Shown here: positions 6,554 through 36,952 of the stretch, piece after piece | How the letters are laid out: every line of letters starts with the position of its first letter | How positions within the stretch are numbered: the stretch's first letter is position 1 | Assembly: GCA_013152945.1 (NCBI GenBank) | Contig: JAADFL010000158.1 | Span: 1 to 64,000 of the forward strand | Origin: Deltaproteobacteria bacterium | Lineage (GTDB): Bacteria > Myxococcota_A > JAADFL01 | Direction: 5' to 3' | Length of the DNA stretch: 64,000 bases | Notes under the pieces: model-generated | Told to the model about the DNA's origin: nothing | Seen by the model: the letters and a program-made list of their open reading frames with translations, nothing else | Database searches by the model: none | Translations under genes and position numbers: made by a program

Positions 6554-7423
6554 GTGAAAGCAGGAATAAAGGCTTTAATCAACTGGTACACAAAGAAGAG
6601 GCCCCTGTCCGACGATGACGGCCAGGCCGCAGTCGAATCCGCACTCGTTTTACCGCTCATGACATTTCTGGTGCTTGGCACCATACAGATGACCATGATG
6701 CAACAGGCCAGGATAATGAACGAGTACGCGGCATTCCAGGCATGCCGGGCCGGTATAGTGTGGAACGCGGACCGGGACAAGATGCGAAAGGCGGCTACGG
6801 TCGCCTTGCTGCCGACCCTGGCCAATACGAGTGATGCCGTCCACCTTGCAAAAACATGGGCCATGTTCGAGGCTGCAGGCACGCTTGGAGATGCGCTTTC
6901 CAAGCTGCTTGGCTTTCTGCCCGGCGGCATTTCTAATGCTGTAAAAATAGTTGATGTAGACATCATGCACCCGACCAAGCAGGAGTTCGACAGCGCTGGG
7001 CCCCTTCCCGGCGGCAAGGAACTGGACTTCGACAAAGTAGACGACGACAAGGCAAGAGACGCAAACAGGCTGCAGATAAGGGTTACTTACCTTTACTGGA
7101 TGAAGATACCGTTCGCCAACTGGATAATTCACGATGCATGGATGGCCACTAGGGCGGGTATACGATACTCCGGGCCTGTGGATAAACCCATGAGCAGGCC
7201 GGATCCGAACCATTGGTACAATCCTTCAGGAGGCAGGAACAGGAATGCTACATATGCTGCGGCCCTTGCAAAAGAGGCCATGAGCAAGGACTGGGAGAGA
7301 TTGGCAAGGATGACCGCAATAGCATTGCTGGCCACAAAGGCAGGCGTTTACCTGATTCCTTTGGAAAGCACTTATTCCATGAGGATGCAATCAAACGTTT
7401 ACAGGGATAACTTGCAGTACTGA
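6554..7423 (+). CDS. TadE-like pseudopilin (first)
   Basis: A 289-residue TadE-family protein, a minor pseudopilin needed for Flp/Tad pilus assembly. Residues 22-28 read DGQAAVE: cleavage after Gly23 leaves Glu at +5, as in prepilins, followed by a hydrophobic helix (SALVLPLMTFLVLGTI). The rest is a larger periplasmic domain than in classical TadE (about 190 residues). The start is GTG with GGAGGG 5 nt upstream. It is the first gene of the plus-strand Tad locus. A perfect TATAAT occurs at 6447-6452, but I find no convincing -35 element with it. Confidence 0.85.
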   Translation: MKAGIKALINWYTKKRPLSDDDGQAAVESALVLPLMTFLVLGTIQMTMMQQARIMNEYAAFQACRAGIVWNADRDKMRKAATVALLPTLANTSDAVHLAKTWAMFEAAGTLGDALSKLLGFLPGGISNAVKIVDVDIMHPTKQEFDSAGPLPGGKELDFDKVDDDKARDANRLQIRVTYLYWMKIPFANWIIHDAWMATRAGIRYSGPVDKPMSRPDPNHWYNPSGGRNRNATYAAALAKEAMSKDWERLARMTAIALLATKAGVYLIPLESTYSMRMQSNVYRDNLQY

Positions 7424-7491
7424 AGAAAAAAGGGAGTTGGATTGTTACTCGGATTGCATGAACCATCGGGCACAGGGAAGACCCGGATGCC

Positions 7492-9177
7492 ATGAATAAG
7501 GCGGCAAGACTCAAGAGGAGCCTGCGAAAACGCAACAAGGGCCAGGCCATGGTGCTTGCTGCGGTAAGCATGCTGATCCTGGCTCTCGGCATACTCGTGA
7601 CGGTGAACCTTGGCCATGCTGTTCACCAGAGGATCAGGCTGCAGAATGCCGCAGATGCGGGTGCGTACTCGCTTGCAGCAATGGAGGCAAGGACTTTCAA
7701 TTACTTTGCCTTCACTAACAGGGCACAGGTGGTGAACTACAATGCCATGATGACATTGAACGCATACATCGCACTGCTGACAAGGGCGGAATCGATGTTC
7801 GGTGTTGCGTCCGACAACATGTACTACATACACACTTATTTATGTTGGTTGTGCAGGGTCGGATGCAAGCCTCCCATAACTACGTTCGGTTGCTGGGCCT
7901 GCCCGTTGAAGAGTGTCGTTGCCGGACTGGGAAATGCTGCCAGGGCTGTTGCAAACGGGTTTGGAGCCATGTTGAACGTGGCGGATCCCGCCCTGGCCAT
8001 GCTTGTCTCTTTGTCCTCCATGGCAAACTATGTGGGTACGTTCACTTCCCAGTACGTCATGGGATCGGCGGTCTTGAGCCACATAGCAGACTCCATGAAG
8101 AGCATAACGAGCAAGGACAGCGAGGAAGTGGATTTCAATGCGTTCCAGATGCTGGTCGGTGCATATAACTACAACGAATACAAAAAGGCCTTTGACCCGG
8201 CAGTGGGCTCCCCTCCGGCCTGGCCGAGAGGCTGGACCCCGCCGGCAAGCGATTCGAATGTGAAAAAAGCAAAGAGGGTCATGGCGGAAATTGTCAATGC
8301 CACGCGGTATCCTGCAAACCACCTGACATGGCAGACCATTCCGGGTTTCGCCTTCTCTGCTTCATGGATAGGCGGCCAGACAAAGCTTATAGACGAGGCA
8401 AAGTTCAATCCGTCCACGGACTTGAGAGGAAAGTACATCGGCCCCGGCCCGGGCTGGGGGGTAAGGGACACCAGGACAAAGGCCCAGGATGAATCCAAGC
8501 TGAGTCCCGGAGATACGCTGGCAAGCGACTCGTGGTACAGGTTTTCCCTCCCTGCGCCGGGCGGTTTCAATGCAGGAACCATGTATTCCCTGTACGTGGT
8601 TGCGAGTCACGATAAGAACAAGAGGAGACATCTTAGGTGGAAGGCACACACGTTCAACCAGGCAGCTTGTAACTATACCTACGGCATGATACAGGTCGGT
8701 CATTTCGGGCTTGCAAAAGACCCGCATCCAAAGGCAGGTTCGAATGACGATATAGATACGCGCCATGCATTCCAGGGCATAACGCCCTTCATGAAGTTCG
8801 CTGCACTGGCCGATGCAAAGCAGGACTTTCACCAGCCGAGTGCGTACGTGATGCTGAACAAGAAGCCGGAAAAGCTGAAGAGGATCTTTACAAAGAAATT
8901 TAACTACAGGACAGGCGCAGGCTCTTCAACCAAGGTGGACATGAACATAGGAAGGAAAGGACTCATGGGTACGGGCGCTTTCAAGGGCTTGACGTCCCTG
9001 TCCAGGGCCATGGCGTACTACCACAGGCCGGGTGACTGGCAGGAACAGCCCAATTTTTTCAACCCGTTCTGGCGGGCAAAGCTGGCGCCGCTAGCAACAG
9101 ACAAGGAACTGGCCGGGCTCTTGGGCTCGGTTCCGGGCCTGGGAAACCTGCTGAAAGACAACCTATTGCTCCATTGA
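7492..9177 (+). CDS. TadG-like Flp pilus assembly protein
   Basis: A 561-residue membrane-anchored protein. Near the N-terminus KGQAMVLAAVSMLILALGIL is a TadG-type N-terminal helix that follows a Gly-Gln junction but lacks Glu at +5, as is usual for TadG. It is followed by the conserved RLQNAADAGAYSLA segment of TadG/TadE-like proteins. The long C-terminal part is presumably periplasmic; no von Willebrand domain is evident, unlike some TadG proteins. It lies 68 nt after the first TadE-like gene and 34 nt before the second, so probably one transcript. Confidence 0.85.
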   Translation: MNKAARLKRSLRKRNKGQAMVLAAVSMLILALGILVTVNLGHAVHQRIRLQNAADAGAYSLAAMEARTFNYFAFTNRAQVVNYNAMMTLNAYIALLTRAESMFGVASDNMYYIHTYLCWLCRVGCKPPITTFGCWACPLKSVVAGLGNAARAVANGFGAMLNVADPALAMLVSLSSMANYVGTFTSQYVMGSAVLSHIADSMKSITSKDSEEVDFNAFQMLVGAYNYNEYKKAFDPAVGSPPAWPRGWTPPASDSNVKKAKRVMAEIVNATRYPANHLTWQTIPGFAFSASWIGGQTKLIDEAKFNPSTDLRGKYIGPGPGWGVRDTRTKAQDESKLSPGDTLASDSWYRFSLPAPGGFNAGTMYSLYVVASHDKNKRRHLRWKAHTFNQAACNYTYGMIQVGHFGLAKDPHPKAGSNDDIDTRHAFQGITPFMKFAALADAKQDFHQPSAYVMLNKKPEKLKRIFTKKFNYRTGAGSSTKVDMNIGRKGLMGTGAFKGLTSLSRAMAYYHRPGDWQEQPNFFNPFWRAKLAPLATDKELAGLLGSVPGLGNLLKDNLLLH

Positions 9178-9211
9178 CGGGAAACGGCATGAAAGTGACG
9201 AGAGAAAGAAA

Positions 9212-10396
9212 ATGAAAAGGCGGCAGGAAAAACAAGAACCCGGTATTGGGCGAATTTTCCCGCCACGGCTCTGTACCGCCGTGTATACAGGAATTGTTCG
9301 CGTATCCAGGCGGTTTTCCTGCAGGGACCATGGTCGATCGAAGGTGCGTGCTCCTTTGGTCCGGGGCAGCGCTGTGACAGAAATGGCCCTTCTCTCGATC
9401 GTGCTGGTTCCTGCATTGCTTTATGCAGTGTACTTTTTCGATATCATACACGTGATGCTCAAGGTCCAGGAAGCGGCCAGATATGCTGTATGGGAGTTCA
9501 CGGGGTATAATCTGCACGATTACAATTCCAGCAAGGGCAAAGGTCACAAGGCAAAGTTCGACTCGGCCAAGTCTGCAATAGAGCAGGATGTAAAAGATAG
9601 GTTCGCAAACCTGGTCTCAACAGACAAGGAGGCAAAAAGCAAGTCCAAGAAGCTGGCCATAGACTGGAATCTAAGCAAGGTGGACATTTCGTCTTCAAAG
9701 ATTCCGGTGGTTTCCAAGAACCTGGCCGACGTGTTTCAAAACAACGGCGGAGGTGCTGGCTTTGGTCAGGTGCTGGACAGATTCAACATGGGAATGAACA
9801 AAATTCTTCAGGACCAGATGAACTTCAATTCCGGGGGCCAGGTTACAGCCAAGATTACTATTCAGGCCAGGGCTACGATTTTTCCGCAGAGGTACTTGAG
9901 CAGGCAGTGGGGCCTTGCTGATTCTATGCTTCCGAGGAAACTTGCAAGGCTGGATTTCACAGAGGATGTTACGCTTGTGGCGGATTCGTGGAAGCTCTTC
10001 GATGGTTCCAACTATGTGACGGCAGGCAAGGGTAAAGATGATCAGAGCAACAAGACGTACTTCAACCAGCTTAAAAACGTGGCCTTTTTCGGACTCGAGG
10101 CAGGTCTGACAAACCAGATGCAGCAGGCCTTGGCCGTGATGGATACCAACCATATACCAAACCCGTGGACCGTGGTGCTTCGTTCCAGGGCCTACAAGGG
10201 AGGAGACCACAATTCAGGCAGGTTCAAATTCAAATCAGGGTACTATTCCGGCGACATAGACGGAGGTATAGACACATACAACACGAGTCCCATGGAAGAC
10301 GGCCCGGGCCAGAGCGAGTACATGAAGACATTCGACAAGCGGGGTGATTATTACATGGGATGCAAGAGCGCAGGAGAAAAGGAATGCTCCTTTTAA
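9212..10396 (+). CDS. TadE-like pseudopilin (second)
   Basis: A 394-residue protein with a TadE signature: RGSAVTEMALLSIVLVPALL, where cleavage after Gly52 would leave Glu at +5. The 52-residue basic leader is unusually long for a prepilin; an internal GTG near residue 45 is a possible alternative start, but the ATG has a purine-rich GAGAGAAAG upstream. The extra C-terminal domain of over 300 residues is presumably periplasmic. Having two TadE-like proteins flanking TadG mirrors the TadE-TadF-TadG trio of classical loci, so this one may play the TadF role. Confidence 0.82.
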   Translation: MKRRQEKQEPGIGRIFPPRLCTAVYTGIVRVSRRFSCRDHGRSKVRAPLVRGSAVTEMALLSIVLVPALLYAVYFFDIIHVMLKVQEAARYAVWEFTGYNLHDYNSSKGKGHKAKFDSAKSAIEQDVKDRFANLVSTDKEAKSKSKKLAIDWNLSKVDISSSKIPVVSKNLADVFQNNGGGAGFGQVLDRFNMGMNKILQDQMNFNSGGQVTAKITIQARATIFPQRYLSRQWGLADSMLPRKLARLDFTEDVTLVADSWKLFDGSNYVTAGKGKDDQSNKTYFNQLKNVAFFGLEAGLTNQMQQALAVMDTNHIPNPWTVVLRSRAYKGGDHNSGRFKFKSGYYSGDIDGGIDTYNTSPMEDGPGQSEYMKTFDKRGDYYMGCKSAGEKECSF

Positions 10397-11148
10397 GAGA
10401 AAGGCCCAGCAGAATAACGGGTGCCGGGTTTTATTTCGTTGCCTTGCTTTCCGCATTCGTATTATTTTTAGCAAGCATTGCACAGGCCAAAGACGCGGAA
10501 GATACACCCGGGTTCGCCTACCCGGGAGCAATGGAACGGCCCCTTGCGGATGACATGCGGCTGAACGGCCTGCCGGTTCTGGAAACGTATTTTTTCACGA
10601 GCGATGAAATAGACCATGTTGCCGACTACTACTTTGAAGCCATGACCAGGTCGGGATTGATGGTGGCTGAATCCGGTTCCAAAGGCAGGAGAACATTGAT
10701 TGGAGTAAGGCCTAACGGAAGTATGGTATTCAGCGTGAACATGTACGATTACGGCGGGAAGGTGGCTGTCTTTCCCTCCAGGATGCCAATGCATCTTCTT
10801 GCACGAAAACAAGATGCACGAAACAAGTCGTCCGGTTCAACCCTGGTCCCGATATTTCCGGGTGCCGATGGGGTTTCGAACCTTGAAACGAACGACCGGC
10901 AAATGGTCACACAAACAATCGGGTACCAAGACAGGCGAAGTCTAACGGATAATATAAGGTTCTACCTGTCCCAAATGAGAGCCAAGGGCTGGAAAGTGGT
11001 TCCACGGGCAAGCCGCGTACAGGGCAATGTCGCTGTAATGTCTTTTGAGAGAACCCGCATGTCCTGCACCATTACAGTGACAAGGGACGAGAAAAAGAGG
11101 TTGACCCTGGTGACAGCCGTATTGAACAAAAGATTGGCGGGAGAGTAG
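10384..11148 (+). CDS. Secreted protein of the Tad locus, function unknown
   Basis: About 254 residues with an N-terminal signal or anchor helix (GAGFYFVALLSAFVLFLASIAQAKDA). I picked the ATG preceded by AGGAGAAAAGGA, which overlaps the end of the TadE-like gene by 13 nt; an ATG 24 nt earlier also exists. The mature part appears alpha/beta, with a segment (YFFTSDEIDHVADYYFEAM) resembling a repeated substrate-sensing or ring-building fold, but I recognise no named family. Translational coupling to the pseudopilin gene and the pilin gene just downstream imply a role in the pilus, possibly periplasmic. Confidence 0.7.
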   Translation: MLLLRERPSRITGAGFYFVALLSAFVLFLASIAQAKDAEDTPGFAYPGAMERPLADDMRLNGLPVLETYFFTSDEIDHVADYYFEAMTRSGLMVAESGSKGRRTLIGVRPNGSMVFSVNMYDYGGKVAVFPSRMPMHLLARKQDARNKSSGSTLVPIFPGADGVSNLETNDRQMVTQTIGYQDRRSLTDNIRFYLSQMRAKGWKVVPRASRVQGNVAVMSFERTRMSCTITVTRDEKKRLTLVTAVLNKRLAGE

Positions 11149-11392: not shown

Positions 11393-12256
11393 TTACGGGG
11401 GTAATCGTGATCCCTTGCTCTCGTCCCGCACTCCTGTAGGAGGAGTTTTTGGATTTACCATTTTTTTGGGCATGGGCATTTTTTCGAGCCGGGGCATTGC
11501 CAAAGTTTTCACCACCGGGCCGTTAATGGCTGACTTGGCGCCTTTCCCAAAGCCCTTCAAGATCCAGATGCCTATGGCACTGTCGGACTTGACTATTCCC
11601 ATAACAGGAACCTTTTTCGAGAACCAGTAATGCATGTCCGAGCCGTCCATGAACTTTGTGACTACGTGCCTGGCCTTGAAAGTGCCCGCCGGAACCTTTA
11701 TGGTCTGGACACCCAGGTTTCTTGTCTTGGACCCGGCTGCTTCCTGACCACATTGGGAAGGGCCGGAAAATCCCGAGTTATTCCTGGTATCGATTTCCAT
11801 GGCAGGCCCGTTTTTGAAACTAATCAGTGATTTCACAGCTCGCAGCCCCCCCTTCCCGTCATTTACCAAAAGCGTCTTTGTTACAATGCCGCCCATGGGG
11901 CCGGTCGTCCTGAACTCGAACCAGGCACCCTTTGCATTGTTTTCCAACCTTTCCTTGGCAACAACGCCCATCCAGATTATAAAAGGGCTTGGTTTTGGGT
12001 CGCCGTGCGTCCGGATTTCGTACTCTACCCATGTTCCGAGAGGAATGTCGGTTATGGCTTTCCCGATTCTTACGGGCAGACTCCAAAGACCCGTGGATGG
12101 CAGGCACCGGCTCTCACCAGGGACCTTCTTGTCTGACATTTTATTAGGAGTTTCACGCTCTCTCGCATACGTGTTCGGGATTGTTACAGGCAACAAGAGA
12201 AACAGCCAGGAAGCAATTATAAAAAATACTAAAGCTCTGGTGGAAGCTGTACCCAT
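11393..12256 (-). CDS. Secreted DUF3108/LolA-like protein
   Basis: A 287-residue exported protein lying in antisense orientation between the Flp pilin and cpaB. An N-terminal signal peptide (LVFFIIASWLFLLLPVTIPNTYA) is followed by a beta-rich domain. The string VPAGTFKARHVVTKF and the later YWFSKKVPVMGIVKSDS match the recurring pattern of LolA-like/DUF3108 proteins, in which a half-barrel binds lipid-like ligands. The C-terminus is basic and proline-rich. Function is unknown; its position breaks the Tad locus into two transcripts. A related domain seems present in the gene ending at 20308. Confidence 0.65.
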   Translation of the reverse strand: MGTASTRALVFFIIASWLFLLLPVTIPNTYARERETPNKMSDKKVPGESRCLPSTGLWSLPVRIGKAITDIPLGTWVEYEIRTHGDPKPSPFIIWMGVVAKERLENNAKGAWFEFRTTGPMGGIVTKTLLVNDGKGGLRAVKSLISFKNGPAMEIDTRNNSGFSGPSQCGQEAAGSKTRNLGVQTIKVPAGTFKARHVVTKFMDGSDMHYWFSKKVPVMGIVKSDSAIGIWILKGFGKGAKSAINGPVVKTLAMPRLEKMPMPKKMVNPKTPPTGVRDESKGSRLPP

Positions 12257-12575: not shown

Positions 12576-13397
12576 ATGCTCAAGGGTCGCACACCACTAA
12601 TTCTTGCCGTTGTGCTGGCCGCCATGGCCGGGCTTTTGGCATATGTTTCTCTGGTCAGTTCGGAAAAGGCGGTACGTGCAGGGTGGGAACTTGTGCCGGC
12701 TGTGGTGGCGAACGAGGATCTTGATGCCGGGACAGAAATAGACGTTGATAACATTGCTGTACGCAAAGTTCCCGAAGACTTTGTGACCAAATCGGTAATA
12801 AGGCCTGAAAATGTGCAGCACATCCTGGGACAAAGGCTTGCAGTAACGATAAAAAGAGGAGATCTCCTTCTCTGGTCGCACTTCCAGGAATCCAGGGAAT
12901 TTGAAAGATTATCCACGCTGGTACAGCCTAAGTACAGGGCCATATCAATACGGGTCAGTGAAGAATCTTCTGTCAGCCAGTGGATAAGACCGAACGATCA
13001 CGTAGATATTCTCGGGACCTTCCGGGATCCCCAGAACAACGAGATGATGACTGTCACCCTGTTACAGAACGTAATCGTCCTGGCAACCGGCAAGATTGCG
13101 CCCACTACTGCTACAGCAGGACTCATGACCGGTGAAAAGAAATATCCATCGATTACCCTGTTGGTCCTTCCGGAAGAAGCGGAGATTCTCACCCTGGCCC
13201 AGGACATGGGTAACATCTATGCCACGTTGAGAAACCCGGACGACATCTCGGTTCAAAGAGAACGCGGTAAGGCTACAATAAAGACACTACTGACCGGCGA
13301 GAGATTGAACACTCTCGGAAGAATAAGGCAAAAGGACCAGGTGATAATCATCCGGGGAACCCAGGCCAAGAGGGCCAGAGGGGCCACAGGGGAGTAG
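12576..13397 (+). CDS. cpaB: Flp pilus assembly protein CpaB/RcpC
   Basis: A 273-residue periplasmic or inner-membrane-anchored protein. An N-terminal helix (LILAVVLAAMAGLLAYVSLV) is followed by a SAF domain: the segment AVVANEDLDAGTEIDVDNIAVRKVPEDFV is the usual CpaB/RcpC beginning, and GQRLAVTIKRGDLLLWSHF continues it. CpaB modulates or stabilises the outer-membrane secretin of the Tad machine. In most loci it is followed by the secretin gene cpaC; here tadB follows 3 nt later. Start ATG has a weak GTGAGG upstream. Confidence 0.9.
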   Translation: MLKGRTPLILAVVLAAMAGLLAYVSLVSSEKAVRAGWELVPAVVANEDLDAGTEIDVDNIAVRKVPEDFVTKSVIRPENVQHILGQRLAVTIKRGDLLLWSHFQESREFERLSTLVQPKYRAISIRVSEESSVSQWIRPNDHVDILGTFRDPQNNEMMTVTLLQNVIVLATGKIAPTTATAGLMTGEKKYPSITLLVLPEEAEILTLAQDMGNIYATLRNPDDISVQRERGKATIKTLLTGERLNTLGRIRQKDQVIIIRGTQAKRARGATGE

Positions 13398-13400
13398 AGC

Positions 13401-14258
13401 GTGCTTTTTCAGACAGCAGCAGTGCTGGTTTTCATATTGGTGGCTGCGTCGGTGTTTTTTGTTGTTGCGGTTGTCCACAACATTCTTGCAAGGGCGTGGG
13501 ACAAGTACCAGGATAGGTACACGGTCAGGACCCTGGATGATTTCAGTGAACTGGTCCTGGTTCTCGAACCCAGGCAAATTGCAGTTCTTTCCGTATGTGG
13601 GGCTGTCCTTGGATTGATGCTTGGAATACTGTTCTTCGGCAAGATTTGGACAGGCATGTTGACTGTAGCAGGTGCTGCCGTACCTCCATTGCTGGTCAGA
13701 AGGTACAGAATAAAAAGGCTGGAGAAGTTCAACCGGCAACTGGTGGATGCATTGAACCAAATTGCAAATGCACTCAAGGCCGGCCTGACCCTGCCCCAGG
13801 CTGCGGAGGATGTGGCCGCCGAGTCACAGGCCCCGCTCGCTCAAGAGTTCGGAGTAATGGTCAGGGAACTGAAACTTGGAGTTTCATTGGACAATGCCAT
13901 GGAAAATATGGCCCGGCGGGTGGGAAGCGAGGATCTCGACTTGGTGGTGACCTCGACCACTGTGGCCAGGACCCTGGGGGGAAACATGGCCGAGATGTAT
14001 GAGACAGTAGCCGGCACGATTAGGGAACGATTCAGGTTGGAGGGAAGGATCAAGGCCGTGACTTCCCAGGGCAAGCTCCAGGGCTGGATCGTGGCATCGC
14101 TTCCCTTTGCGCTCTGGCTCGTAATGGATTACATGCGGCCCGATTTGATGGAACCCCTGTTTTCATCCTGGCACGGTTACATCGTCATCGGCCTGATCCT
14201 GTTTTTCGAAGGTATCGGTATCATGCTGATCAGAAGGATTGTAAATATAGACGTGTAA
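13401..14258 (+). CDS. tadB: Tad inner-membrane platform protein TadB
   Basis: A 285-residue GspF-like (T2SSF) membrane protein. N-terminal membrane segments (about 1-25 and 55-85) precede the cytoplasmic helical bundle (NRQLVDALNQIANALKAG, then GVSLDNAMENMARRVGSEDLDLVVT), and two helices close the protein. TadB and TadC form the inner-membrane platform on which the TadA ATPase acts. A GTG start lies 3 nt after the cpaB stop, with GGGGAG upstream, so translation is probably coupled. The gene order lacks the TadZ and TadA genes that usually precede tadB. Confidence 0.92.
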   Translation: MLFQTAAVLVFILVAASVFFVVAVVHNILARAWDKYQDRYTVRTLDDFSELVLVLEPRQIAVLSVCGAVLGLMLGILFFGKIWTGMLTVAGAAVPPLLVRRYRIKRLEKFNRQLVDALNQIANALKAGLTLPQAAEDVAAESQAPLAQEFGVMVRELKLGVSLDNAMENMARRVGSEDLDLVVTSTTVARTLGGNMAEMYETVAGTIRERFRLEGRIKAVTSQGKLQGWIVASLPFALWLVMDYMRPDLMEPLFSSWHGYIVIGLILFFEGIGIMLIRRIVNIDV

Positions 14259-14276: not shown

Positions 14277-15170
14277 GTGATCTTCAAGGTGCTATTAGGA
14301 ATATCCGCCCTCTTGTTCGGCGTGGCGGTTTATTACTTTGTAATATGGGCCTGGACCAAGGTACTGGGAACACTGTCAGGCGGTCCTGAAAAAAGGGATA
14401 AGGTCCGTGTCGGAGGCGGGCAAATCGTCCGGAAACTGATCAAGATGACCGGCGGGCTGGTTGCCGGTTTTCTAAAGCAGGATTATGAACAGCGAATAGC
14501 CGCCAAGCTGGTAATGGCGGGAGAGCCCGAGGGTGTGGGGCCATTGGACTTTTTCGCAACCCAATTTCTGTCTGCCGTGGCCTTTCTTATCTTTGCACTT
14601 ATCTTCAGCCTGTTTTTTGCATTCAGACCGGTAAATTTCGTGCTTGTAGTCGTAACATTGACTTTTTTCGGATTTACCTTCCCCCATGTGTGGTTGCGGG
14701 ACAAGGTGGCGCAAAGGCACCAGGAAATAGCAAGGGCCTTACCATATGCGCTCGACCTGTTGACCTTGTCGGTGGAGGCGGGGATGGATTTTGCGGCTGC
14801 TGTGTCAAAGGTGGTCGAAAAGGGACGGGCCAGCGCCCTGGTCGAAGAATTAAGATTGATGCTCAACCATCTTCGCATGGGAAAAACAAGGGAGGAAGCC
14901 CTCAAGACGCTGGCCGATCGTGTCAATATGCCCCAGTTACACCAGTTCACGAGTGCCTTGATCCAGGCGGACCGAATGGGAACTTCACTTGGACATATAT
15001 TACGCATACAATCCAACCAGCTTCGCATGGACAGGACACAACGCGCGGAAAAATTGGCAAACGAGGCTCCGGTTAAGATGCTGTTTCCCTTGATATTTTG
15101 TATTTTCCCAACGGTTTTTATAGTACTCTTCGCCCCGATAATCTATCAGTTCGTCGTGGGCGGAGTGTAA
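14277..15170 (+). CDS. tadC: Tad inner-membrane platform protein TadC
   Basis: A 297-residue T2SSF-family protein paralogous to TadB. The core helices carry RALPYALDLLTLSVEAGMDF and the conserved MLFPLIFCIFPTVFIVLFAP membrane end characteristic of TadC. GTG start with TAGGAGGAAGG upstream. It follows tadB by 18 nt and precedes the first FHA gene by 10 nt, so all are one operon. It is expected to pair with TadB in the inner membrane. Confidence 0.92.
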   Translation: MIFKVLLGISALLFGVAVYYFVIWAWTKVLGTLSGGPEKRDKVRVGGGQIVRKLIKMTGGLVAGFLKQDYEQRIAAKLVMAGEPEGVGPLDFFATQFLSAVAFLIFALIFSLFFAFRPVNFVLVVVTLTFFGFTFPHVWLRDKVAQRHQEIARALPYALDLLTLSVEAGMDFAAAVSKVVEKGRASALVEELRLMLNHLRMGKTREEALKTLADRVNMPQLHQFTSALIQADRMGTSLGHILRIQSNQLRMDRTQRAEKLANEAPVKMLFPLIFCIFPTVFIVLFAPIIYQFVVGGV

Positions 15171-15180
15171 GAAACCAAAG

Positions 15181-16611
15181 GTGGCCGGACAAGTGAGCTA
15201 CTTGGACACAGGCGAAGGCAGCGCACCCGAATTCTCCTTGACCATTACCGAAGGGGATGGCAAGGGAGAAAAATTCGAGTTCGACCGGGTGGAAATCAGT
15301 GTTGGGAGAAATCCGGAAAACGACATGGTTCTCTCCAGCTCCAAGGTATCAAGATGCCATTTCAACATTAGGTATGCAGGGACCAAGTACATAATCAGGG
15401 ATGAGGGCAGCAGCAACGGCACCCTTGTAAATGGTAAGCCTATCAAGAAGGCCCTTCTGTCCAACGGCGACAAGATCAGGGTCGGGCCTTTCGTTCTGCT
15501 TTTCGGTACCGGCCAACAAACACCCGAAGGAGATCTCTACGGTTCCAAGTCCGACACCAACAGGACTCCCACGGGCGCAAGAACTCTTCCTCCCGGAGGT
15601 GTCGGCTCGGTGAGAGGAGCCAAGCCCTTGGCCCGCGCAGGTGAAAGGCCTGGAAGAATACCCGGCAGGGTGGCAAAAATAGAGCCGATAAGACGGAGAA
15701 GGGTTTCAGGCAGAATACGGGTCGTGGTGGAACGCGCGGGCGTGTTCTTCGGTCCATTAAAGCAGTGGCTGGACAGGCAGGACAAGCTGACCCGCATGTT
15801 GTTCTATTCAACGGCCGGTGCGATTGGATTTCTGCTCCTGGTATTATTGGTAATAGTATTCGTTCAATCCATCGGGGAAGAGGAGAATCTTTCGGCCCGG
15901 GTGTACGAGGCTCCGCTGTCCGGTCCTCTTGGTTATTGTGACGAGGATCGGTCTCATCCTGACGAATTGAGGATTCGCTTCAAGTACGGTAGTGGACGGG
16001 CCACTCTGGAATACTCTGTTTACAATGTCACATCCGGAGGAGAGATTAAAATAAAGGTTAATGGCGTGGATGTTTCCGAGGCGCCTTTGAGCCCGGGTAA
16101 ATGGACGGAAGGGATCAGGATGGTTATACCGAAAACTCACCTGCTCGAAAATGCGGACAATCTGCTTGTGTTCGACAACACGTTCAATCCTCCGAAACGC
16201 AGAGAATGGGCGGTAGGCGATATCAAGGTTACGGAAGAACCTCTGCCTAAGGGCAATATCCGCAAGGCGAGGGAATACATGGAAAGAGCCCGGAAACGGT
16301 ACCAGAGCAGGAAGATAGGGTTCGAAAACCTGTACAGAGCATGGGAATACTTCAGATTGGCGAGGGACTACATGGAGAACCTCGAAAACAAGCCCGATCT
16401 CTATCAGGAAGCCGATACAATGGTGGAAACATGCCGCCGTGAACTCGAAGAAGAATATTCAGGTGGCATGTTTAGGATCCACAGGGCTTTGGAATATGAT
16501 AACCTGGATGAGGCTCGTCGTGAGGCGGAACGATTGCTCAAATTCTTCCCTGAGCCGGATGATCGCCGACACAGGGAAATCAAGCAGCTCTTGGAGCAGT
16601 TGAATGAATAA
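15181..16611 (+). CDS. Membrane FHA-domain protein (first)
   Basis: A 476-residue protein with a cytoplasmic forkhead-associated (phosphothreonine-binding) domain at about 20-108: VGRNPENDMVL (Arg43), SRCH at 57-60 and SSNG at 77-80 are the key binding residues and all are intact. A basic linker leads to a single membrane helix at about 205-230 (FYSTAGAIGFLLLVLLVIVF), then a C-terminal domain with a beta part and a helical, TPR-like part. Cytoplasmic FHA, one helix and an external domain is the topology of T3SS ring proteins such as PrgH/YscD, but no homology is claimed. Start GTG has little Shine-Dalgarno support. Confidence 0.82.
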   Translation: MAGQVSYLDTGEGSAPEFSLTITEGDGKGEKFEFDRVEISVGRNPENDMVLSSSKVSRCHFNIRYAGTKYIIRDEGSSNGTLVNGKPIKKALLSNGDKIRVGPFVLLFGTGQQTPEGDLYGSKSDTNRTPTGARTLPPGGVGSVRGAKPLARAGERPGRIPGRVAKIEPIRRRRVSGRIRVVVERAGVFFGPLKQWLDRQDKLTRMLFYSTAGAIGFLLLVLLVIVFVQSIGEEENLSARVYEAPLSGPLGYCDEDRSHPDELRIRFKYGSGRATLEYSVYNVTSGGEIKIKVNGVDVSEAPLSPGKWTEGIRMVIPKTHLLENADNLLVFDNTFNPPKRREWAVGDIKVTEEPLPKGNIRKAREYMERARKRYQSRKIGFENLYRAWEYFRLARDYMENLENKPDLYQEADTMVETCRRELEEEYSGGMFRIHRALEYDNLDEARREAERLLKFFPEPDDRRHREIKQLLEQLNE

Positions 16612-16644
16612 TATCAATCGCGACGGTTATGCTGGAGTAATGCA

Positions 16645-19323
16645 ATGACCAGGAAACCAGGAGACAAGGACGACGACCTGTTTGATACTCTCTTCGGAGA
16701 GGAAGATCACAAACAACGGCCGGACGAAAAAGGGGATATCGATCTGGAAGAACTGGACCGCAAGGTCGGTATCAATTCTGATGAGGATGAAAGCGACGGC
16801 TTTGGGCCTGAAGATTTAATAGACGACTTGGAAACACAAGACGAGCCTCAAGGTGAAATAGAGGATGAAACAGTCGATGAATTCGAAGAAGTGTCCGACG
16901 ACGATGTAATGTTTGCCGATGAAGGTGATGTTCAACTTATAGATAGCGACGAGCTGGAAAAGACTGATCCGCAGACCCGCAGGTCAGCGCCAATCAAGGC
17001 GGAGAAAATAAAAGAAGAAGATGAGCAAGAAGAGGGACAAGATCAACAGATTAGTGATGAACTTCTTGGTGACGATTTTCTGGATGATGAGATGAAAGCC
17101 TTGGCCGAAGGCTCACTGGAAACAAACGACGATATAAGCGGAACAGCAAAAAGTGACATTGCCGATACAGGTGAAGACCTGGAACCTGCCGACGAAGAAG
17201 AGATATTTGGGGAGGTGTCTTCAGGTCCCAAGAATTCACCTGTCCGCCCGGGAGGCATGGCGCCTACCATGGAGATGGAATATCCGGAAGGGCGGGATAT
17301 TCCCGGCTTTGAAGAAAGTCCGGAAGATAAAGCGGCCCAGGAAGATATCAAGGTCGCTGGTTTCGGTATTTCCCATCGGAGAGAGATTGATGAGCAACCG
17401 CTATTCGGCGCACCTGATCCGGAAATGGAAGAACAAGAGCCACGGGATGCAAATGATGATTTCCTTTTGGGCCCAAGTAGCCGGCAAGCCAGGCCCGTTG
17501 GTAGAAGAAAAGGCGGACTGGTGGATGATATCGTGGGTTACGAAGCATTCAAGGATAAACCGGGAGCCGCGGGTGGAAGAGGTCCCGGCGGTGCGAAATC
17601 CTCTTCCGAGTCGGAATTGGCTGACGAGGCCACACAGATAATAGATATTCGTGAAGCAAGAGCCAGGACCGATTTGCCGAGGCTTGTGGTACATACATCT
17701 GACCGGGGGGATGTGGAGTACATGGTCGAGGATGGGGGACTGACAATAGGTCGCGGAGTAGACAATGATGTAATCATTTCGGATTTGGCGGCTTCAAGGC
17801 AACATGCGATTGTTCAAGTCAGGGACGGTAGTTACTTTCTTGCCGATCTGGGCAGTGGAAACGGCACCCGCGTAAATGGACGGAGGATAGACGAGGTGCC
17901 GTTGAAGGGTGGGGAAGAGATAGAGATCGGGACGGTAAGATGTCATTTCGTTATTCCGTCTGCAAAAAACGGACAACCTCATGTTTTCACGCCAAAGAAG
18001 AAATCAGGGAGCATGGCAAAGGCGCTGCTGGCATTGTCATTGGTGTTGTTACTTGCCATCGGGATCGGCTTGGTCGTCAAGTTCGGTATGAAGAAAGGAT
18101 GGTTCGGGAAGAGGGGAAATACAGGAGTGACCGAGCTAGCCAGGAAGAATGATAGCGGTACAGCCAAAAAATTCTTCGACCAGGGTGTGGTGAAATTCAG
18201 AGAAAAAGAGTGGAAAGAGGCATTGAACAAGTTCCAGGTCGCTGCTCAATTGGACCCCCGGTTTCCGAACATTGACAAGTACCTGCAACGTTGCAAGGAA
18301 GAGGAGGACAATGCTCGCTGGTTCGAGGAAGGCAAAGCCGCTTTCAAAAAAAGAGATCTCCGGAAAGCCAGGGAATTTTTGTCCAAGGTTACATTGGAGA
18401 GTGTATATCGTACCGATGCTCAACAATTTCTGGCCAGAACCGAAGATGCCTTGGTGGATCAAATGCTGAAAAAGGCCGAGCAGATTCTCGACGCAAATCC
18501 TTCAGAAGCATTGAAGCTTGCAAAGGAAGTCATCGAGATTATGCCGACCAATACGCGGGCCTTCAACATACAGACAAAAGCCGAAGATCGCCTGGACAAG
18601 AAGGGAACCAGGGTGGCTGCGGTGGAAAGGCCTTCATCAACGAACAGATCTTGGCATCCAAGACGGCATTACAGGCCCAAAAGCAAGGTGGAAACAAGAC
18701 CGGTCAAAACCGAGAAAAATACAGAAGAGGAGGCGCCCGGCCAGTCATCGGCTACTGGAGGCATTGCCGATGGTTTACGCCTTTTCGACCAGAAGAAATT
18801 TTCAGATGCCATTGCGTTCATGAACAACCTGAGCCGGTCATCCAGGAGAAGGGCAACAAGGCGCAAAGCATCCAAGCTTGTAAAGAAATTGAAGGCATTC
18901 AATGCAGCATGGAACAGTGGAACAAATCAATTGAAGAAAAGATCCTTTGGAGGAGCCATAAGGGCATTCGAGAAGGCACTGAGGATTGGGAAAACCATCA
19001 AGTCGAGCAGCCCCATAATCGACGAGGTCAAGAAACGACTCGCACCATCCTATGTCCTGTACGGCAATGCTTCCCTCAAGAATACAAAGTATTCCGAAGC
19101 ATATCAGAGCTTCAAGAAAGCCTTGAAGTACAGGCCTGGATATACGCTGGCAAAAAGAGGTATGCAGCAACTGGCCTCAAAAGCCAAGAAGCTCTACTAC
19201 GAAGGTTATGTTGCCAAGTACTCGGATCCGGACACGGCAAAGAAAAAATGGCGTATCGTGGTCCAGATAACGCCGCCTGACAACGAGTGGCATCAAAAGG
19301 CGGAGAAACGCCTGGAAGAATAA
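16645..19323 (+). CDS. Membrane FHA-domain protein with acidic N-terminus and TPR tail
   Basis: An 892-residue protein. Residues 1-200 are very acidic and probably disordered. An FHA domain occupies about 345-440: IGRGVDNDVII (Gly-Arg at 369-370), SRQH and SGNGT carry the expected phosphopeptide-binding residues. A membrane helix follows at about 457-480 (MAKALLALSLVLLLAIGIGL). The rest is tandem TPR-like helices (AKKFFDQGVVKFREKEWKEAL and later repeats) in a basic, Lys-rich tail. GGAG lies 8 nt before the ATG. It closes the Tad operon. With the preceding FHA protein it suggests control of pilus assembly by threonine phosphorylation or an inner-membrane scaffold; that is inference from context. 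Confidence 0.82.
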   Translation: MTRKPGDKDDDLFDTLFGEEDHKQRPDEKGDIDLEELDRKVGINSDEDESDGFGPEDLIDDLETQDEPQGEIEDETVDEFEEVSDDDVMFADEGDVQLIDSDELEKTDPQTRRSAPIKAEKIKEEDEQEEGQDQQISDELLGDDFLDDEMKALAEGSLETNDDISGTAKSDIADTGEDLEPADEEEIFGEVSSGPKNSPVRPGGMAPTMEMEYPEGRDIPGFEESPEDKAAQEDIKVAGFGISHRREIDEQPLFGAPDPEMEEQEPRDANDDFLLGPSSRQARPVGRRKGGLVDDIVGYEAFKDKPGAAGGRGPGGAKSSSESELADEATQIIDIREARARTDLPRLVVHTSDRGDVEYMVEDGGLTIGRGVDNDVIISDLAASRQHAIVQVRDGSYFLADLGSGNGTRVNGRRIDEVPLKGGEEIEIGTVRCHFVIPSAKNGQPHVFTPKKKSGSMAKALLALSLVLLLAIGIGLVVKFGMKKGWFGKRGNTGVTELARKNDSGTAKKFFDQGVVKFREKEWKEALNKFQVAAQLDPRFPNIDKYLQRCKEEEDNARWFEEGKAAFKKRDLRKAREFLSKVTLESVYRTDAQQFLARTEDALVDQMLKKAEQILDANPSEALKLAKEVIEIMPTNTRAFNIQTKAEDRLDKKGTRVAAVERPSSTNRSWHPRRHYRPKSKVETRPVKTEKNTEEEAPGQSSATGGIADGLRLFDQKKFSDAIAFMNNLSRSSRRRATRRKASKLVKKLKAFNAAWNSGTNQLKKRSFGGAIRAFEKALRIGKTIKSSSPIIDEVKKRLAPSYVLYGNASLKNTKYSEAYQSFKKALKYRPGYTLAKRGMQQLASKAKKLYYEGYVAKYSDPDTAKKKWRIVVQITPPDNEWHQKAEKRLEE

Positions 19324-34777: not shown

Positions 34778-36952
34778 TTGAATTACAACATATTCAACAG
34801 GACACGGAGGCTTGGGAAAATCTTGCACCGCGAGTATTCTAACGGACAATTGCGGAACCCGGGTTCAATCCTTGCCTCGTTGTTGTTTCTAATGCTCGCG
34901 GATGTCGTAGTGACATCTGAATGCCCGTTGATTGAATTTTCCTTCAACTATGGATTTCACTTGCATTCCAACCCAAGATCCCTGCTGTTGTTTATTCAGC
35001 ATCCTTCGGTATCGGCCCTGGAATTCGGACTTTTCCTGCTTGCAGGCCTGCTCTGGATTACGTGGGCGGCTTTCGTATCATGGATGTCAAGACATCTAAA
35101 ATTAATCAAGGGGCATCCTGTCTTGTTCAATATGCTCCAATTATTCATACCAATCGCGACAATCCTCGGTTTTTTCTTTAGGCAGGACGGTTACACTACA
35201 AACTATTGGCCTGCCTGGTCCTTGTTGTTCGGCCTGGCCCTGTCGGTTTTCTCAATCATCCTTTCTACTGTTGGAAACAGGATTCCGTCCGGCGGCGCAA
35301 ATACCATCCAGGCTTTCATGTTGCTCCTGCTGTCATTGATTGTCCTTTGGCCTGTTGCAGGATTCAGGGCCGGCCAGTACGTGGCGCCCAGGGCTCTTGC
35401 ATGTGTCTTAGCCCTGGTCCTGGCATATTCGGGAATAGATTCACTGGTCGCAGGCATTCGACCGCATTTCATTGAAATTCAACCCGGATTTCTGCTCAAG
35501 GTGATAACACCGTGCTTGCTGATTCTGATCGCTATCGGCCTGGGCCCCTTGAAAGATCCGGGAGCAAGGGCATCAATCCTTACCCGTACCATGGTGGGTC
35601 AACGACTTGCCGATCTCTTTGCCTTTGTTGCTGGCTGCCGCCAGGAACGACTCGAGGACGATACCTGCCACTGGCTAGGAAAGAGCGGGATAAAGGGCGG
35701 GATAAAGGGCGGGATAAAGGGCGGGATAAAGAGCGGGATAAAGAGCGGGATAAAAAAAAATAAAAAAGGGATGCTGGACAACGGGCCCGGGAACATGGGA
35801 TCAGGCAATTACGAGCAGCAGGAAGAAATCGCAGGGATCCTGCTCGTCAGCATCGATGCATTGAGACATGATAGGATGTCAGGCGGAACAGCCACGGCAA
35901 GGTACCTGAAAAGCTTGGCGGAACGTTGCATAAATTTTACCAGGACTTACGCATATTTTCCCAATACCATTGGATCTTTAATGTCTCTTACCAGGATGAA
36001 GCCGCTTGTAGATTACACGAAGATCGAGGATTTTGGGGAAAGGGGCGGGGGAAAAAACGCCAGTATCTTTGAACTGCTGGACAAGGAAGGCTTCGTAACT
36101 GCCGGTGCTTTTCCAATGAAGTACTTTACTCCAGACTCTCCTGTCCTGAAGGGCATGGAGGAATTGCAATTGGCACCGGGATTCGACATCAGGCCGGGAG
36201 AATCATCCCATGCACCGTGGCAGGTCAAAAAAGCCTTGTCCGACATCCGCAATATTGCTGAATCCGGGAATAAGTTCCTGTATTGGGTCCATTTGTACGA
36301 GCCTCACTATGGATACGTTGTCCACCATGATTTTTCCTATGGTAACCGTTTGGCACAGAGGTACGATTCAGAGGTTGCATATTCGGATTCGAATCTGAAG
36401 AATCTCATTAAGGGTATCGAAGATTTGCACCTGGTAAAAAGGACCGTGATCGCGGTTTTCGCAGACCACGGAGAGGAACTCTTCGACCATGGAGGACAGT
36501 TTCACGGCAAGAGTCTGTACGAGGAAGAAATTCGTGTACCCATGGTCATGTGCCTTCCCGGTCTCGGCCACAAAAGCATCGAGACTCCTGTATCATTGTT
36601 GTCTCTGTTTCCCACAATTCTAGACTTTATGGGCATTGGTATTCATCGCGATGTGGATATCATTGCGGGATCCTTGCTTCCACTCGTTCTGGATATATCT
36701 TCTCCGGGTTTGAAAAGGCCGGCCTGCATTGTGTCCTATTGCTACAACGCGCCTGTACTGAACGCAGGCGGCGCGTCTTTCGCTGCTGTACGCGACCGGT
36801 ACAAGCTGGTCGTTCATCACAGGTTTGCAGGCAGGGAACTGTACGACCTTCAGGAAGATCCGAAAGAAAGGGAAAATCTCGCAGGACGTGGCCTTGATGT
36901 GGAAAACAAATTGTTCGGCTGCCTCATGGATTTTCTCGGGAGGCAGCAATAA
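34778..36952 (+). CDS. Polytopic membrane protein with sulfatase/alkaline-phosphatase-fold domain
   Basis: A 724-residue protein. About seven hydrophobic helices fill residues 20-280. A Gly-Ile-Lys repeat linker at about 303-328 leads to a periplasmic sulfatase-fold domain: LLVSIDALRHDR binds metal, FADHGEELFDHGGQFHGK supplies the second metal site, and VHLYEPHYGY is conserved. The nucleophile region reads FPNTIGSLMSL, so Thr or Ser rather than a formylglycine Cys would act, as in LtaS or EptA-type phosphotransferases. A role in modifying lipid or glycan head groups is inferred. The start is probably TTG; it is not coupled to either neighbour. Confidence 0.75.
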   Translation: MNYNIFNRTRRLGKILHREYSNGQLRNPGSILASLLFLMLADVVVTSECPLIEFSFNYGFHLHSNPRSLLLFIQHPSVSALEFGLFLLAGLLWITWAAFVSWMSRHLKLIKGHPVLFNMLQLFIPIATILGFFFRQDGYTTNYWPAWSLLFGLALSVFSIILSTVGNRIPSGGANTIQAFMLLLLSLIVLWPVAGFRAGQYVAPRALACVLALVLAYSGIDSLVAGIRPHFIEIQPGFLLKVITPCLLILIAIGLGPLKDPGARASILTRTMVGQRLADLFAFVAGCRQERLEDDTCHWLGKSGIKGGIKGGIKGGIKSGIKSGIKKNKKGMLDNGPGNMGSGNYEQQEEIAGILLVSIDALRHDRMSGGTATARYLKSLAERCINFTRTYAYFPNTIGSLMSLTRMKPLVDYTKIEDFGERGGGKNASIFELLDKEGFVTAGAFPMKYFTPDSPVLKGMEELQLAPGFDIRPGESSHAPWQVKKALSDIRNIAESGNKFLYWVHLYEPHYGYVVHHDFSYGNRLAQRYDSEVAYSDSNLKNLIKGIEDLHLVKRTVIAVFADHGEELFDHGGQFHGKSLYEEEIRVPMVMCLPGLGHKSIETPVSLLSLFPTILDFMGIGIHRDVDIIAGSLLPLVLDISSPGLKRPACIVSYCYNAPVLNAGGASFAAVRDRYKLVVHHRFAGRELYDLQEDPKERENLAGRGLDVENKLFGCLMDFLGRQQ
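35685..35756 (+). repeat. Six tandem copies of a 12-nt unit
   Basis: Copies 1-3 read GCGGGATAAAGG exactly, copies 4-5 GCGGGATAAAGA, and copy 6 decays into an A-run followed by TAAAAAA. Because 12 nt is four codons, gain or loss of a unit keeps the frame and changes the length of the Gly-Ile-Lys-Gly/Ser linker; the A9 tract next to it could instead shift the frame. Confidence 0.9.

Follow-up and report, generated by a model that had tools for sequence, protein, structure and literature searches.

Two FHA genes at the end of a Tad operon

The DNA analysed here, referred to as the window, comprises positions 1 to 64,000 of contig JAADFL010000158.1 (C158) from the Deltaproteobacteria bacterium assembly GCA_013152945.1, a 4.84 Mb genome in 218 contigs that is 94% complete. 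On its + strand the window carries the closely spaced genes cpaB-tadB-tadC-fha1-fha2 of a Tad pilus machine, and our subject is the last two of these. FHA1 (15181..16611, +, GTG start, open reading frame of 476 amino acids) begins 10 nt after the stop codon of tadC, and FHA2 (16645..19323, +, ATG start, open reading frame of 892 amino acids) begins 33 nt after that of FHA1. As the original prediction had stated, both encode an FHA domain, a membrane helix and an extracytoplasmic tail, and they end a pilus operon. Genes for TadA, a secretin and TadZ are absent from this operon.

The FHA domain of FHA1 (residues 18-110, 15232..15510) contains R43, S57, R58 and N79; it was matched by the Pfam FHA family at residues 39-102 (E 1.4e-19). 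The AlphaFold2 model, built from 46 aligned sequences with a mean predicted local distance difference test score (pLDDT) of 84.5, reaches about 95 or more over residues 21-110. It predicts disorder at residues 112-177, followed by helices up to residue 232, a beta-sandwich of nine strands (residues 241-353, 15901..16239) and a TPR-like domain of five helices (residues 360-475, 16258..16605), which is conserved more widely than the rest of the tail. The membrane helix spans residues 210-228 (15808..15864, hydropathy 2.72) within a modelled helix of residues 202-232. Foldseek did not place the beta-sandwich among known folds, as the searches with full models were dominated by the FHA domain.

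In FHA2 about 340 acidic, presumably disordered residues precede the FHA domain (residues 346-436, 17680..17952; Pfam match at residues 367-429, E 2.4e-17). The membrane helix (residues 460-478, 18022..18078, hydropathy 2.94) is followed by a TPR tail (18121..19317) that matches TPR_2 (PF07719) at 2.4e-17. The AlphaFold2 model, calculated for residues 340-892 from 33 sequences (mean pLDDT 86.9), predicts the FHA domain, the membrane helix and then helices only, arranged in two solenoid blocks with a low-confidence linker. The earlier claims of one membrane helix per protein and of a TPR tail in the second protein thus held.

An orientation with the N-terminus inside is supported for both proteins by the charge bias over the orthologues, where an excess of lysine and arginine lies on the N-terminal side of the helix in 26 versus 11 rows for FHA1 and 22 versus 2 rows for FHA2. 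FHA2 of the window itself displays no bias (5 versus 5). Neither protein has an N-terminal lipoprotein signal, the membrane helix being internal in both, and the pair consequently does not share the lipoprotein character of TadD.

An FHA gene follows tadC in a large TadC clade

To assess how often such genes accompany tadC, we scanned named genomes with a two-row TadC alignment and chose loci by the TadC motifs of this subfamily. The top of the scan consisted mostly of Myxococcaceae and other Myxococcota. Among 80 named loci, 76 were assessable; an FHA gene lay directly after tadC in 68 of the 76 and further downstream in three, although the selection by subfamily motifs means that 68/76 is not an unbiased frequency. 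Other relatives often have, immediately 3′ of tadC, a gene for a protein with an FHA domain, a helix and a helical domain. No relative emerged when contigs were first scanned with the tail of FHA1, and a profile of the tail made from eight seed sequences found five more proteins (E 1e-15 to 3e-6) in distant Myxococcota families, each encoded next to tadC.

We also built a quick TadC tree from 114 rows, in which some branches are long and rows L060, L074 and L075 were labelled by hand; it split into 96 and 18 rows (support of 100 in the Shimodaira-Hasegawa-like approximate likelihood ratio test). Of the 89 classified rows in the larger clade, 85 have an FHA gene after tadC and four have none, a further seven being unjudged; in the smaller clade the gene is present in 0 of 17 classified rows, with one unjudged. 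The FHA label required four changes on the tree, compared with 19.5 changes in shuffled labels, and none of 500 shuffles was as low. The FHA-bearing clade spans Myxococcota, Bdellovibrionota, Verrucomicrobiota, Kiritimatiellota, Lentisphaerota and others; the window's TadC groups among Myxococcota. A lack of co-occurrence with tadB/tadC had been named as the finding that would speak against the original prediction, and co-occurrence is strongly present. The conserved place after tadC, following the TadC tree, also agrees with membership of the pair in the Tad machine.

Some members of the family depart from the common layout. In four loci from Corallococcus and Myxococcus dinghuensis (L101, L104, L136 and L143), the FHA1 frame reaches 960-1391 amino acids, the FHA domain being separated from the membrane helix by a very long linker of low complexity. 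In one locus (L096:2896-4187) FHA1 is represented by an FHA-only reading frame of 136 amino acids and a membrane-plus-tail frame of 294 amino acids with a 4-base overlap, which may reflect either gene fission or a frameshift.

The locus is related to Myxococcus xanthus kil cluster II

The related locus of M. xanthus AM003 (L100) displays the order of three minor pilins, a gene at the position of the window's small exported protein, a Flp-like gene, CpaB, TadB, TadC, FHA1 and FHA2, followed by an xseA-like gene. The FHA1 orthologue lies directly 3′ of tadC (phmmer 9e-29 for the tail) and the FHA2 orthologue follows it (4e-16 for the tail). Published anchors place kil cluster II at mxan_4648-4661, with KilK as mxan_4655, KilL4 as 4658, KilN4 as 4659 and KilM4 as 4660 (PMC12075869). 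From gene order and these anchors, rather than from annotation, we infer that FHA1 is the orthologue of MXAN_4649 and FHA2 that of MXAN_4648, which places the pair at the end of kil cluster II. Core genes of this cluster are needed for prey killing (PMC8460266).

The window's genome resembles M. xanthus also in its second Tad locus. The window holds the sole TadB/TadC pair found in the genome, and only one CpaF-type ATPase (TadA) was present among the eight T2SSE loci checked. This ATPase has an N-terminal FHA domain and is encoded on another contig (C167, locus L039), flanked by genes for a secretin and for a KilD homologue with two FHA domains, a helix and TPR. Since the sole TadB/TadC pair and the sole CpaF-type ATPase lie apart, the Tad system of this genome is divided over two loci. 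The partner locus of M. xanthus likewise groups an FHA-fused ATPase (54% identity to that of the window's genome), a secretin and a KilD gene after the ATPase. Both halves of a Kil-type system are thus present: CpaB, TadB, TadC and TadE/F/G-type minor pilins together with FHA1/FHA2-type genes after tadC in one place, and the secretin, the FHA-fused ATPase and the KilD-like FHA-FHA protein in a separate cluster. FHA-domain matches in relatives that were considered as FHA1/FHA2 pairs proved to be pairs of FHA-TadA and KilD-like proteins and were ruled out.

Compared with M. xanthus kil clusters II and I (MXAN_3102-3108), gene content, gene order and the two-locus split are the same, while identity to the window pair is about 29% for FHA1 and 23% for FHA2, and the window's FHA2 has a longer acidic N-terminal region. 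Contact-dependent killing of prey is known for the predator M. xanthus, whereas the system of the window organism is known from its genes alone. The original prediction was mistaken in regarding such proteins as undescribed for Tad systems, as the literature on M. xanthus Kil already reports an enrichment of FHA domains, a KilF ATPase fused to FHA and KilD, an FHA protein that is essential (PMC8460266, PMC10433427). The broad retention of an FHA gene after tadC, the folds predicted for FHA1 and FHA2 and the membrane layout seen in KilD did not turn up in the open-licence papers searched. The Kil papers mention FHA proteins but characterise only KilD; the closing gene pair of kil cluster II now has a layout, predicted folds and a conserved position in the machine.

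KilD has been published as cytoplasmic. The M. xanthus AM003 protein that is KilD (MXAN_3108) by position (L189:2787-5009, −) has two FHA domains, a clear hydrophobic helix at residues 294-312 and a long tail behind it; the TPR in this layout was recognized by Pfam in the homologue of the window's genome. Moreover, the KilD-like protein of another locus (L190) matches the FHA2-tail profile at 1e-19. Judged by its sequence, KilD appears to be membrane-anchored and to share the layout of FHA1 and FHA2, with a TPR tail related to that of FHA2. It differs in having two FHA domains and in its gene, which stands beside the ATPase and not after tadC. A further M. xanthus FHA protein (L189:9098-9958, −; 286 amino acids) with a C-terminal FHA domain and no membrane helix is encoded just upstream of the KilC-like secretin.

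Elsewhere in the window's genome, contig C127 (L194:10140-15825) carries a gene for a non-flagellar SctJ-like lipoprotein followed by genes resembling SctL, SctN and further parts of a type III secretion system (T3SS), and a separate SctV-like gene lies on contig C25 (L179:11125-13095). These genes are possibly the counterpart of the needleless T3SS that works with Kil in M. xanthus.

The phosphothreonine pocket is conserved

The original prediction described the phosphothreonine-binding residues as intact, and they proved near-invariant. In FHA1, R43 is conserved in 44 of 44 sequences, S57 in 46 of 46, and R58 and N79 each in 43 of 46; in FHA2 the G-R, S-R-x-H and N-G residues are kept in 32-33 of 33. 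The sequences were picked by their FHA matches, which may favour high conservation in these counts. Both proteins combine the conserved G-R, S-R-x-H and N-G residues with the FHA fold, and their nearest neighbours in the PDB are the ligand-binding domains of GarA/OdhI, by Foldseek for FHA1 and FHA2 and also by sequence profile for FHA1.

Candidate ligands may lie in the linkers. Acidic-Thr-x-x-[ILV] motifs in the FHA1 linkers, a pattern partly sought after the sequences had been seen, numbered 48 versus 13.9 expected from shuffles, and occurred in 20 of 49 FHA1 rows versus 9.6 expected; serine controls were flat. Two DATRPI motifs occur in the FHA1 linker of M. xanthus. The enrichment is a hint that sister subunits may offer their phosphorylated linkers as ligands to the FHA domains.

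The genome contains 27 FHA matches and 27 Pkinase matches. Despite this number of FHA domains, two consecutive FHA genes after tadC are more than chance, because an FHA gene directly follows tadC in most of the assessable related loci. The proposed link to Ser/Thr kinases is plausible given the near-invariant pocket and the Pkinase matches. A precedent is found in the type VI secretion system (T6SS), where Fha binds a phosphothreonine of the inner-membrane protein TssL (PMC3953482). T6SS Fha/TagH with PpkA resembles our pair in that an FHA protein is tied to an envelope-spanning machine under phosphothreonine control; it differs in that Fha lies in the cytoplasm and lacks a scaffold in the periplasm, and no PpkA-like partner was identified here. 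Phosphothreonine binding by FHA1 and FHA2 is thus favoured by three things: the pocket is conserved, the genome is rich in kinases, and the T6SS provides a precedent.

Possible role of the FHA proteins

We propose that the Kil-type Tad machine includes FHA1 and FHA2 as bitopic subunits in the inner membrane. Their cytoplasmic FHA domains would bind threonine-phosphorylated partners, either other machine subunits or a kinase target. In the periplasm, the beta-sandwich/helical and TPR scaffolds would touch the TadB/TadC platform, CpaB or the secretin. The pair, the FHA-fused ATPase and the KilD-type protein could jointly make up a multivalent hub, dependent on phosphorylation, through which pilus assembly is recruited or licensed at the right place and time. 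On balance we lean towards this reading of FHA1 and FHA2 as phosphothreonine-dependent inner-membrane scaffolds that recruit or license the machine, and they probably link protein-kinase signals to the place and time of pilus building. The recruiting role fits published data on KilD, which is indispensable for killing and gathers into foci where prey is touched, even when the core Tad parts are missing (PMC8460266). From these data and the layout of KilD, contact-triggered recruiting scaffolds are therefore the most economical reading of the FHA - helix - TPR family.

Several observations weigh against this proposal. A distant Myxococcota group (L063, L070, L075 and L077) has an FHA-like domain without the G-R and S-R-x-H residues, and so phosphothreonine binding is not essential in every relative. 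Five loci from Myxococcaceae/Archangium metagenome-assembled genomes (L107, L112, L116, L120 and L121) lack FHA1 and have FHA2 directly after tadC. The linker motif is missing from the FHA1 of the window, the enrichment is weak for FHA2 (T.[ILV] only), and its partly post hoc origin counts on the same side.

The original prediction had likened the topology to the T3SS ring proteins PrgH/YscD (SctD) and suggested an inner-membrane ring for the Tad machine. The proteins would then oligomerise around the Tad platform and use the FHA domain for packing, which we consider unlikely. The echo in topology is real insofar as an N-terminal FHA-fold domain, a single helix and an extracytoplasmic tail occur in the same order, and Foldseek matched the cytoplasmic domains of YscD (E 4e-8 and 1.5e-7). 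These matches rank only 29 and 34, however, behind the GarA/OdhI-like domains, and YscD was not among the sequence matches listed. Likewise, the loss of pocket residues in some distant relatives that keep the domain would suit a packing module, whereas the same residues are near-invariant in the close family and are kept in FHA1 and FHA2. The tails also argue against a ring of the PrgH/YscD type: their folds differ, the predicted structures contain no alpha/beta ring-building motif, and neither protein gave a Pfam match to the periplasmic domain of YscD (YscD_ppl). The match to PF16697 (Yop-YscD_cpl) was rejected as a T3SS link, as this family also matches the cytosolic FHA-TadA and is not diagnostic. 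PF16693 gave no match in the window's genome or in M. xanthus, but all controls were equally silent, so that this absence carries no information.

The TPR tails could alternatively do the secretin- or pilotin-type work of the TadD lipoprotein, with the FHA domains as a regulatory addition. A TadD-like TPR lipoprotein indeed follows tadC in six loci of the clade without FHA that were read by eye (L073, L079, L085, L088, L089 and L092), TadD is reported missing from Kil (PMC8460266), and FHA2 is predicted to be all TPR outside. An inner-membrane anchor is nevertheless ill-suited to an outer-membrane pilotin, and FHA1 coexists with a TadD-like lipoprotein in two loci (L068 and L074), making this substitution improbable. 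That the pair consists of bystander receptors, merely cotranscribed with tad and serving another envelope pathway, would be in keeping with a genome rich in FHA and kinase genes. It appears very improbable given a place directly after tadC that is conserved across several phyla and follows the TadC tree.

Beyond the recruiting scaffolds proposed for this locus, we tentatively suggest that an FHA - helix - periplasmic scaffold gene after tadC defines a Tad clade over several phyla, in which pili would be assembled on demand through phosphothreonine and a shared FHA hub (ATPase, KilD, FHA1 and FHA2), with the FHA proteins occupying the genomic place of TadD. Such a role bears on how Tad pili are switched on at prey or surface contact, and a link from kinase to pilus is now directly testable in M. 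xanthus. The FHA gene after tadC can serve as a genomic marker for a Tad subclade reaching Verrucomicrobiota, Kiritimatiellota and Lentisphaerota.

Other genes of the window

Upstream of the FHA genes, the operon encodes CpaB/RcpC (KilB-like; 12576..13397, +; Pfam RcpC 3.5e-24) and the inner-membrane platform proteins TadB (13401..14258, +; Pfam T2SSF 2.9e-17) and TadC (14277..15170, +; Pfam T2SSF 6.6e-17), the latter with 52% identity to M. xanthus TadC. Genes for TadE-, TadG- and TadF-type minor pilins and for a small exported protein make up a second + strand group (6554-11148), which a minus-strand gene (11393-12256) separates from the cpaB operon. The minor pilins correspond in order to the three of the M. 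xanthus cluster: a TadE-type protein (6554..7423, +; Pfam TadE 2.3e-9; phmmer 2e-45 to the first), a large TadG-type protein (7492..9177, +; Pfam Tad 4.7e-7; phmmer 3e-49 to the second) and a TadF/E-type protein (9212..10396, +) that has no Pfam match and reaches 3e-30 in phmmer to the third. Further along the window, a sulfatase-like membrane protein (34778-36952) has a central stretch of GIKG/SGIK repeats.

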